Below are positions 46,506 to 49,689 of a stretch of 64,000 nt of DNA, in pieces (the first letter of the stretch is position 1; each line of letters starts with the position of its first letter). The translations under genes and the position numbers were made by a program. This DNA is from Haloarcula marina (GTDB taxonomy: Archaea > Halobacteriota > Halobacteria > Halobacteriales > Haloarculaceae): positions 1,736,001 to 1,800,000 of the forward strand of contig NZ_CP100404.1 in NCBI RefSeq assembly GCF_024218775.1. Reading direction: 5' to 3'. The notes below the pieces were generated by a model that worked only from the letters and a program-made list of their open reading frames with translations, was not told the DNA's origin and did not search any database.

Positions 46506-47252
46506 TCAGGCGGGCGGTGCGACACGTGCCGCCGTCGTGGCGTTGTCTCGCTGGTCGGCCACCCAGTCATCGTAGGCGGACTGGTTCAGGACGACGACAC
46601 TGCCGTGCATCCGACTGTGACCCGACCCGCACAACTCTGCGCAGTAGAGGCGGTAGGTCCCGTTCTGCGTCGCGTTCGTTCGCGCGACGGCGGTCTGTGC
46701 GGGGAAGATGTCCTGTTTGATACCGAGTTGCGGGACGTAAAAGGAGTGAATCACGTCCGTCGACCGGAGTGAAAACCGCACGTCGGTGTCCCGCGGGATG
46801 ACCAGTCGCGTTTGGGTAGTCACGTTCGCGTCGGGGTAGTGGAACTCCCAGCCCCACTGGTAGGCCAATACCTCGATTTCCATGTCGTCGTCGAGTTCGC
46901 CGCCGGGTTCCGTCGGCCCGGCCGCGGCCGGTGAGATGTAGGGGTTCGAGAGGACGAAGAAGGCCGAAACGCCGACGAAGACCAGAATCGCGCCCGTCGC
47001 CGCCGTCCACGTAATCTCCAGCGCGGGGTCGTCGATGGTGGGACGCGGTCGGTCGTTGTTCCGGAAGCGATAGATGGCGTAGACGAGCGTCAGTTCGACG
47101 AACAACGTCAACGGTAACGCGACGTACAGCAACTGCTCGTTTAGGTCGTCGATGGCCGCCCGGTTGACCGACTGGGCGGCGGCGGGCGTCGCGAACAGGC
47201 AGACTCCGGCGGCGAAGAGACAGAGCCACGCGAACCGGCGACTGTGACGCAT
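46506..47252 (-). CDS. coxB: Heme-copper oxidase subunit II
   Basis: 248 residues from the ATG at 47252. A signal-like helix (FAWLCLFAAGVCLFATPAAAQ) and two membrane helices (YVALPLTLFVELTLVYAIY and ATGAILVFVGVSAFFVL) precede the periplasm-facing cupredoxin domain. The CuA site is intact: VIHSFYVPQLG (His) and CAELCGSGHSRMHG (C-x3-C-x3-H-x2-M). It receives electrons and passes them to subunit I. The TATA element TTATAT (47279-47284 on the minus strand) lies 27 nt upstream, so the transcript is leaderless. It is divergent from coxA. Confidence 0.95.
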   Translation of the reverse strand: MRHSRRFAWLCLFAAGVCLFATPAAAQSVNRAAIDDLNEQLLYVALPLTLFVELTLVYAIYRFRNNDRPRPTIDDPALEITWTAATGAILVFVGVSAFFVLSNPYISPAAAGPTEPGGELDDDMEIEVLAYQWGWEFHYPDANVTTQTRLVIPRDTDVRFSLRSTDVIHSFYVPQLGIKQDIFPAQTAVARTNATQNGTYRLYCAELCGSGHSRMHGSVVVLNQSAYDDWVADQRDNATTAARVAPPA

Positions 47253-47284: not shown

Positions 47285-47333
47285 TTTGGCCAACGGAAGG
47301 ACTGCGGGCCGATGCGTGTCGATTCTCGCGTAG

Positions 47334-47339
47334 TTTTAT
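47334..47339 (+). promoter_or_regulatory. TATA box of the coxA transcript
   Basis: TTTTAT lies about 27-30 nt before the ATG at 47366, which heads a 19-codon ORF overlapping coxA. It is too close to the ATG at 47344 to serve that codon, and it is about 85 nt from the coxA ATG at 47422. Confidence 0.5.
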
Positions 47340-47365
47340 TTGAATGGCACTACCAGTGATTGGCA

Positions 47366-47425
47366 ATGACTACCGCCACCGTGTCGTCGCCGAGTGTCGT
47401 GGCCTCAACCCCCGAGAAACGATGA
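47366..47425 (+). CDS. Possible 19-residue leader ORF coupled to coxA
   Basis: MTTATVSSPSVVASTPEKR, ending in a TGA (47423-47425) that overlaps the coxA ATG (ATGA at 47422). The predicted transcription start from the TATA box at 47334-47339 falls on its ATG, so a leaderless message would be translated into it first and reach coxA by termination-reinitiation. Whether the peptide has a role is unknown; it might only set the oxidase expression level. Confidence 0.4.
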   Translation: MTTATVSSPSVVASTPEKR

Positions 47426-49689
47426 ATCGGGCCGTCGTCGAAGGGTCCGCACTGGCCCTGCTTGCGACTGCGATTCTCGCCCTCTGGTTCTACAGCCGTC
47501 ATACCGTTCGCCCGGAGAGCGACGGCGGCTACACCACCCGCGAGGAGATACGGTTCGAAATCGGGCGCCTCCAATCGGAGGTCTATCGCTGGCTGACGAC
47601 CACGAACCACCGCGACATCGGTATCCTCTACATCGTCTTCGGAACCGTCGCGGGCCTGTGGGGCGGCGTCGACGCGATGATGCTCCGCACGGAACTGCTC
47701 ACCCCGCCCGCGGACATCTGGACGCCGGAGACGTACAACGCCCTCTTTACGACCCACGGGCTGACGATGCTCATCTTCTTCGTCCTCCCCGTGTTCTTCG
47801 GTATCGGCAACTACGTCCTCCCCCTGCTCATCGGGGCCGACGACATGGCGTTTCCGCGGGTGAACGCCATCGGTTTCTGGTTGCTCCCACCGGCGCTGCT
47901 GCTCGTTCGGATGGGCCTGTTGGTGCAGGTCGGCGGGCAGGTGCTGAGCCTCGTCTTCCCCGAAGACGCCATCCGCTTTTTTCTCACCGTCCGCGAGGTC
48001 AGCGTCGGATGGACACTCTACGCCCCGCTGTCAGTCCAGCAACCGAACCCGCAGATAGACATGCTCCTGTTGGGCCTCCATCTCTCGGGTATCGCGACGA
48101 CGGTAGGCGCCATCAATTTCATCGCCACCGTCGCCTACGAGCGCGCGGAGGACGTGACGTGGGCCAATCTGGACATCTTCTCGTGGAACATGCTCGTGAC
48201 CAGCGGCCTCGCGCTGTTCGCGTTCCCCCTCCTGGGAAGCGCCCTCGTGATGCTCCTCTTGGACAGGAACCTCGGGACGACGTTCTTCGCGACGGGCGGG
48301 GGCGGCCCCATCCTCTGGCAACACCTGTTCTGGTTCTGGGGCCATCCCGAGGTGTACATCCTCTTCCTCCCGGCTTCGGGATTGATGAGCACGCTCCTCC
48401 CGAAGTTCGTCGGGCGGAAACTGTTCGGGTATAAGTTCGTCGTCTACTCGACGCTCGGACTGGGCGTCCTCTCGTTCGGCGTCTGGGCGCACCACATGTT
48501 CGTCTCGGGCGTCGACCCGCGGCTGAAGGCGTCGTTCATGGCTATCTCCATCGCTATCGCCGTTCCGAGCGCCATCAAAGTGTTCAACTGGATAACGACG
48601 ATGTGGGACGGGGACATCGACATGTCCGCGCCCTTCATCCTCTGTACGGGCGGCATCTCGACGTTCATCGTCGGCGGCGTCACGGGCGTCTTCCTCGCCG
48701 TCGTCCCCATCGACGTGCTGTACCACGGCACGTACTACGTCGTCGGCCACTTCCACCTCATCGTCGTCGGCATCATCCCGTTCCTGATGATCGCCGCGAG
48801 CTACTACTGGTACCCGCTCATCACCGGCCGCTGGTACGACACGCGGCTGGCGAAGTTTCAGGCGGTGCTCATCGTCTTCGGGTCGTTCGTGACGTTCATG
48901 ACCCTGCTGGTCGTCGGTGGTCTCGGCCTCCCGCGCCGTCAGGCCATCTACCCCGTCGAGTACCAACTCGCCCAGCAAATCGCCACCGTCGGCGCGTACA
49001 TCATCGGTCTGAGCGCGCTGCTGTGGCTCTACAATATGCTCGTCTCGTACTGGCGCGGCGACGTGGTCCAGACGACGGACCCCTGGGGACTGAAGGCCAC
49101 CCAGCAGTTCACCCGAGAATGGCAGTGGTTCGAGGAGCGGATGGTGGACAAGTACGACCTCGAACCGGCAGAACCCGACAGCACGCGACGCCCCTACGCG
49201 CCCGAACTGGAACCGCTGGGACTGCTCGGTGGCGTCGGCAGCGTCGTCGAAAACGTCTACCGTAACGCCTCGATGGCGGCCATCGGCGGGTTCGTCGGCA
49301 CGGTGCTGATGACCGGCGGCATCGGGACGGCCGTGGTCGTCGGCGTCCTCGACCCCGCCTCGTTCGGCGAAATCGCCGAGTTGGTCGGCCTGCCCGCTGA
49401 CCCCCTCATCGGGGCCGGTCTGTTCCTCGTCGGCGGGACGGTGACGTGGCCGCTCCTGTTCCTCGCGTTCCAGGAGTACCTGCCCGGCCGACTCCTCTTC
49501 GAGACGGGCCTCGTCTTCTCGACGCTCATCTTCTCGGGGTTCGCCATCGCCTTCTACACCGGTCAGTCCGGACTCGCACTGGTGGGGTATCTCGGATTCA
49601 GCCTCGTCGCCCACTGGGCGTATGGCCTCGGTCTGACGGTGACCTTCCAGTATCTCCGCTCGCGTCGGCGGGCACGCGGGGGACAGTAA
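47422..49689 (+). CDS. coxA: Heme-copper oxidase subunit I
   Basis: 755 residues from the ATG at 47422; an in-frame ATG at 47344 gives 26 extra residues that precede the predicted transcription start. The twelve-helix core carries the heme and copper ligands: TTHGLTMLIFFVLPV (low-spin heme His), WFWGHPEVYILFLP (CuB His and cross-linked Tyr), AHHMFVSG (CuB His pair) and VVGHFHLIVVG (heme His pair). A long C-terminal extension of about 150 residues adds extra membrane helices (AAIGGFVGTVLMTGGIGTAV, LIGAGLFLVGGTVTWPLLFL). It reduces O2 to water and pumps protons. The next gene starts 1 nt later. Confidence 0.96.
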   Translation: MNRAVVEGSALALLATAILALWFYSRHTVRPESDGGYTTREEIRFEIGRLQSEVYRWLTTTNHRDIGILYIVFGTVAGLWGGVDAMMLRTELLTPPADIWTPETYNALFTTHGLTMLIFFVLPVFFGIGNYVLPLLIGADDMAFPRVNAIGFWLLPPALLLVRMGLLVQVGGQVLSLVFPEDAIRFFLTVREVSVGWTLYAPLSVQQPNPQIDMLLLGLHLSGIATTVGAINFIATVAYERAEDVTWANLDIFSWNMLVTSGLALFAFPLLGSALVMLLLDRNLGTTFFATGGGGPILWQHLFWFWGHPEVYILFLPASGLMSTLLPKFVGRKLFGYKFVVYSTLGLGVLSFGVWAHHMFVSGVDPRLKASFMAISIAIAVPSAIKVFNWITTMWDGDIDMSAPFILCTGGISTFIVGGVTGVFLAVVPIDVLYHGTYYVVGHFHLIVVGIIPFLMIAASYYWYPLITGRWYDTRLAKFQAVLIVFGSFVTFMTLLVVGGLGLPRRQAIYPVEYQLAQQIATVGAYIIGLSALLWLYNMLVSYWRGDVVQTTDPWGLKATQQFTREWQWFEERMVDKYDLEPAEPDSTRRPYAPELEPLGLLGGVGSVVENVYRNASMAAIGGFVGTVLMTGGIGTAVVVGVLDPASFGEIAELVGLPADPLIGAGLFLVGGTVTWPLLFLAFQEYLPGRLLFETGLVFSTLIFSGFAIAFYTGQSGLALVGYLGFSLVAHWAYGLGLTVTFQYLRSRRRARGGQ

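Follow-up and report, generated by a model that had tools for sequence, protein, structure and literature searches.

The coxA gene of Haloarcula marina is preceded by a short leader ORF that ends inside the coxA start codon, and this stop/start layout is kept across the order of haloarchaea, not local to this species. The layout is conserved more than the peptide that the leader encodes, and comparison across related loci and reading frames indicates that it is more than chance. We propose that the leader ORF probably acts as a ribosome-loading cassette, in which leaderless initiation and translation of the mini-ORF would be followed by reinitiation at coxA. We infer the transcript start, the translation of the leader and its coupling to coxA from sequence comparisons.

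The locus was analysed within a 64,000-nucleotide stretch of the genome, hereafter called the window, and its features are collected in Table 1. The leader ORF, which starts at ATG 47366 and encodes the peptide MTTATVSSPSVVASTPEKR, sits between the divergent coxB and coxA. The first T of the TATA-like box is located 31 nt 5′ of the leader ATG and 87 nt 5′ of the coxA ATG. An earlier note on this DNA had described the TGA of a 19-codon ORF as overlapping the coxA ATG in the form of an ATGA; that junction was confirmed exactly. The coxB mRNA is apparently leaderless, because of the position of the TATA-like match before its start codon. The nearest named relatives of CoxA are found at the Halomicroarcula rubra and Haloarcula pellucida loci (92%).

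Table 1. Features of the leader-coxA locus of Haloarcula marina (coordinates in the window)
Feature	Coordinates	Strand	Description
TATA-like box of the leader-coxA transcript, TTTATT	47335..47340	+	Sole YTTAT match in 47301-47370
Leader ORF	47366..47425	+	19 sense codons and TGA; ATG is the predicted transcript start
ATGA overlap, leader stop/coxA start	47422..47425	+	TGA 47423-47425 over coxA ATG 47422-47424
coxA	47422..49689	+	COX1 domain fused to DUF6789 (Pfam); start at 47422
coxB, divergent	46506..47252	-	Pfam; TATA-like match 32 nt before ATG; without leader ORF
ORF, 167 aa	49691..50194	+	No Pfam match; begins one nt past the coxA stop

The position of the box was compared with a genome background of 413 predicted genes, based on crude gene calls in 464 kb of the same genome, window included. 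There were 35 YTTAT-like matches at the four positions -31 to -28 of the predicted starts of these genes, compared with 0 to 3 at any other position. As the spacing of the coxA box equals this genome-wide peak, the leader ATG would occupy the leaderless-start position of this genome, and the natural prediction is an mRNA 5′ end at or adjoining 47366. The earlier suggestion that the TATA position fits transcription from the leader ATG thus holds as a prediction. Among the matches listed for other haloarchaea, the TATA box lies 30 to 31 nt from the leader ATG in 72 of 94 paired loci, whereas its distance to coxA varies from 59 to 121 nt. The distance to the leader ATG is 40 nt in 11 of the 94, and a short 5′ UTR and not a strictly leaderless start is therefore predicted there.

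We then assessed conservation at haloarchaeal coxA loci. From 167 matching loci, 37 were dropped for an identity below 57% or an alignment starting beyond residue 30, and 26 because their 170-nt region was identical to another, leaving 104. L156, which has no start near the aligned position, was removed, and of the 103 loci tabulated six more were set aside as they align only from beyond residue 3 (L063, L064, L065, L067, L159 and L160); no leader was found in these six, whose CoxA N-terminus cannot be aligned. There remained, among the matches listed, 97 distinct loci with a conserved CoxA N-terminus, and a leader ORF of 8 to 29 codons is present in 96 of them, 95 with ATG and one with GTG (L157 has a GTG leader only). 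The carriers span at least five families (f1, f4, f6, f7 and f17), and those that are named include Haloferax, Halobaculum, Haloglomus, Salinigranum, Natronococcus, Natrinema, Halorientalis and Halorarius. The sole exception in the 97, L022 (G010:C4), has neither a leader nor a TATA-spaced ATG; it is the second coxA copy of a genome whose other copy, L163, has a leader.

The position of the leader stop is similarly constrained. Conservation of the ATGA junction, which had been put forward as a check, was borne out: among the matches listed, the leader end lies at +4 of the coxA start in 70 of 96 cases, at +7 in 17, at +1 in four and at -2 in five, and the coxA start reads RTGA in 78 of 97 loci. 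In L057 and L127 the second codon of coxA is GAC, which abolishes the ATGA, and the leader stop is found instead 2 nt before the coxA ATG.

Several counts show that the frame of the leader is kept although its length changes. ATGs picked by TATA spacing alone (28 to 33 nt, in any frame) all fell in the leader frame (75/75, among the matches listed), and no ATG lies at 28 to 33 nt from a TATA match in the other 22 of the 97 loci listed. Mapped on a FastTree tree of CoxA, the distance from that TATA-spaced ATG to the first CoxA codon shows at least 20 changes, each of them a multiple of three. Among the 97 loci listed, the leader frame accounts for 90 ATGs at -65 to -35, compared with 10 and 1 for the two others. 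Stops at -44 to -5 occur in the leader frame in five of these 97 loci, compared with 30 and 27 for the other frames, and five is likewise the count of leaders that stop 2 nt ahead of coxA. Under a rough null, an ORF ending at -3 to +8 is expected for 0.275 of ATGs; the product over 14 single-linkage clusters (65% identity) is 1.4e-8, a rough value that is conditional on the ATG being present and treats the clusters as independent.

An N-terminal extension of CoxA, whether begun at the in-frame ATG 47344 or produced through a frameshift from the leader, is hardly credible. Although the frame from ATG 47344 is open in this genome (781 aa), and an in-frame upstream ATG precedes any stop in 16 of the 97 loci listed, the predicted transcript start lies 22 nt downstream of this ATG. 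In addition, an in-frame stop occurs no more than 111 nt upstream of coxA in 73 of the 97 loci listed, and coxA is annotated from the equivalent of 47422 in three related plasmid records, whose gene table, known to be incomplete, gives no leader gene. A CoxA start at 47344 was rejected on these last two grounds. Annotation is affected, since the annotated relatives list no leader and taking the longest open frame of the window would set the start of coxA wrongly.

Conservation of position and of an open frame would also be expected if the leader encoded a small protein with a function of its own, placed before coxA by chance. However, leader peptides vary from 8 to 29 codons in length and their sequences differ between clades. 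We counted substitutions between close pairs of leaders, the pairs not being independent. The Haloarcula set (12 sequences) yielded 30 synonymous versus 81 non-synonymous changes, where 0.31 synonymous to 0.67 non-synonymous is expected at random, and a more distant group (22 sequences) yielded 24 versus 42, a weak synonymous excess over the random expectation of 0.26 to 0.70. There is thus no clear purifying selection on the leader peptide in these two sets of close pairs; a conserved micro-protein was rejected on these counts, and we regard a small protein as very improbable. As the ORF is kept across salt-loving archaea and the peptide is not, a role in recruiting ribosomes is suggested, and the passage of ribosomes is a likelier requirement than the peptide itself.

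We also considered a regulatory leader, in which translation of the mini-ORF would sense oxygen, copper, haem, an amino acid or the state of the ribosome and set the oxidase level beyond a constant coupling. A terminal oxidase is a plausible target, and the end of the leader has a feature that is unexplained: the last sense codon encodes Arg in 53 of the 70 leaders with a 4-nt overlap, whereas among background RTGA pairs CG or AG precedes the start in only 3 of 21. Over all 96 leaders, Arg is the final residue, or precedes the Cys of a 7-nt overlap, in 73, in most cases as CGA and then TGA (both leader counts among the matches listed). Apart from this enrichment, the hallmarks of an attenuator or arrest peptide (regulatory codons, arrest motif, RNA structure) were not found, folding having been computed on the window sequence. 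No Rfam match was obtained at E values up to 1, and three stretches of the window sequence folded no better than their shuffles (z of 0.17, 0.82 and -0.32), on which grounds an RNA element was rejected. With peptides that diverge between clades in the absence of clear purifying selection, regulation by the leader is unlikely.

Another way to translate coxA would be direct initiation on a leadered mRNA whose 5′ UTR measures about 56 nt, the leader ORF being dispensable. Haloarchaea are reported to translate leadered mRNAs without Shine-Dalgarno (SD) sequences efficiently and without scanning (PMC3986360), and SD-like matches of at least 5 nt are found just before coxA in 38 of 59 loci below 70% identity, compared with 12 and 0 in the controls. 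Such matches are present in 3 of 10 loci at 70 to 80% identity (controls, 0 and 1) and in just 1 of 28 in the Haloarcula group (controls, 0 and 0), and the SD is described as non-functional at H. volcanii 5′ UTRs (PMC3986360). Direct initiation would moreover fail to account for the retention of the ATG, of an open frame and of the stop position, and we consider it quite improbable.

Our preferred reading therefore remains ribosome loading through the leader. Transcription would start at or next to 47366, as predicted from the TATA spacing, yielding an mRNA that begins with the leader AUG. Ribosomes would initiate there by the leaderless route and read the 19 codons up to the TGA that overlaps the coxA AUG; after termination at this stop they would begin again on coxA. 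This course of events is suggested by conservation and by published coupling in Haloferax. What selection maintains would then be a 5′-terminal AUG, an uninterrupted frame and the place of the stop, with little constraint on the peptide, and coxA would be poorly translated without translation of the leader. The proposal was based on several published observations. Leaderless transcripts make up 72% of the protein-coding transcripts of H. volcanii (PMC4983044). Coupling was tested for nine overlapping gene pairs of H. volcanii, and was strict in 13 of 14 pairs in H. volcanii and Escherichia coli, with a variable contribution of the SD (PMC6728339). Reinitiation is reported to require an overlap or a very short gap, a stop/start distance of -8 to +6 nt being indicative of termination-reinitiation (PMC10666635), and all 96 leader ends among the matches listed fit this range.

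Some observations count against ribosome loading. These include the initiation on SD-less leadered mRNAs mentioned above and the weakness of leaderless initiation in some constructs with a 5′-terminal start codon (PMC3986360), as well as the 40-nt spacing in 11 of 94 loci, the lack of a leader in L022 and in the six loci with an unalignable N-terminus, and the GTG-only leader of L157. As for the earlier claim that oxidase translation depends on a short leader peptide, the kept TATA spacing, frame and overlap fit dependence on translation of the leader, but a need for the peptide itself is less likely.

The leader does not appear to be a general property of oxidase genes, a possibility that was rejected as none of 20 paralogous starts has a TATA-spaced leader. 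No overlapping short ORF was present at 17 of these loci, and the remaining three have one but no TATA match, with up to three candidate starts considered per locus and a strict TATA pattern. In the survey of 413 genes, in which gene calls were crude and several starts were tried per gene, a leader at the correct TATA spacing was found for six genes including coxA, compared with 0 to 3 (mean, 1.0) for 12 shifted windows. This suggests that further genes of the genome, such as that for pyruvate kinase, may bear leaders of this kind.

For the five other genes, whose names are our reading of the sequences, loci of the genus were compared using a widened TATA window. The pyruvate kinase-like gene (L200:6234-7988, minus strand; L208-L236) has a TATA-spaced leader with an 8-nt overlap in 28 of 30 genus loci, one of the misses being a gene fragment. 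An order-wide search yielded this leader in 3 of 27 further loci, one of them from the same genus, and in most other families the gene starts directly. These counts indicate that the pyruvate kinase leader is clade-specific, whereas that of coxA is found order-wide. Short TATA-spaced leaders precede the gene for an amylase-like secreted protein (L196:9377-10672, minus strand; L283-L294) in 8 of 12 loci, with a spacing and length that vary between clades. A gene of unknown function has a TATA-spaced leader in 8 of 26 genus loci, and an overlapping ORF in 21 of 26 when no TATA match is required. TATA-spaced leaders were found in 2 of 5 genus loci for a membrane gene and in 2 of 14 for a flippase-like gene.

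The closest known kind of element is the leaderless "coupled" small ORF of mycobacteria. Leaderless transcripts there are reported to open with a small ORF that is absent from the annotation and ends in a TGA overlapping the RTG of the gene as RTGA (Shell et al. 2015, PMC4633059), and in the example given the layout is conserved and the peptide is not. The coxA leader has the same stop/start layout: it is a small ORF in another frame, its TGA lies over an RTG start, and it is unlisted in three records; its peptide, too, is weakly conserved. Unlike the mycobacterial ORFs, some coxA leaders overlap the gene by 7 nt or 1 nt or end 2 nt short of it, and translation was measured in mycobacteria (PMC4633059) whereas we infer it for coxA. 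The mycobacterial cases are also bacterial, whereas here a single archaeal gene keeps the layout across an order. It is this domain of life and the order-wide maintenance at one gene that are notable in the coxA leader.

Termination-reinitiation pairs described in haloarchaea (PMC6728339, PMC10666635) share with coxA the organism group, ATGA or GTGA overlaps and the dependence on a short distance. Those pairs consist of annotated genes, however, whereas the upstream cistron of coxA is an ORF of 8 to 29 codons at the predicted transcript start, with little conservation of its peptide. In E. coli, 5′-terminal uORFs likewise combine a 5′-end AUG with a short ORF before the main gene, which they can affect (Beck et al. 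2016, PMC4965119), but their mRNAs also carry a conventional SD leader, and most Haloarcula coxA loci have no SD-like match. The uORFs described in long 5′ UTRs of Haloferax volcanii are likewise small (15 to 31 codons) and haloarchaeal (Babski et al. 2016, PMC4983044). That survey took UTRs of 150 to 250 nt only and lists 16 cases in 97 transcripts in a table from which coxA is absent, and its uORF section does not discuss stop/start overlap. Among the papers listed in searches of the open-licence literature, there was no report of a haloarchaeal coxA leader or of a class of such ORFs in haloarchaea.

If the proposed mechanism is true, selection has acted on a leaderless, reinitiation-coupled mini-ORF at a central respiratory gene throughout an archaeal order. 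It may even be, although we put this forward tentatively, that haloarchaea generally use short 5′-terminal ORFs, largely indifferent to the peptide, to feed ribosomes into selected genes. Coupling would then be an evolvable expression dial, because the coxA case is order-wide and long maintained and those of other genes, such as that for pyruvate kinase, are clade-specific. If true, such general use would be the counterpart in archaea of what the coupled ORFs do in mycobacteria. The coxA leader offers a simple natural system in which haloarchaeal ribosomes would meet a 5′ AUG and then an overlapping start, and the reason why some haloarchaeal mRNAs have a short leader becomes a question for reporter experiments.

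Other observations were made on the coxA genes themselves. In L167 (G013:C1:529538-532505) coxA was found as two separate matches, to query residues 1-181 and 292-752, and the gene thus looks interrupted. On a Halobaculum litoreum plasmid, coxA is present at two places, L043 and L044, with an identical upstream region. Because the 167-aa ORF downstream of coxA starts so close to the coxA stop, it may in turn be coupled to coxA; at the equivalent junction, the three annotated plasmids have gaps of 1, 1 and 7 nt.
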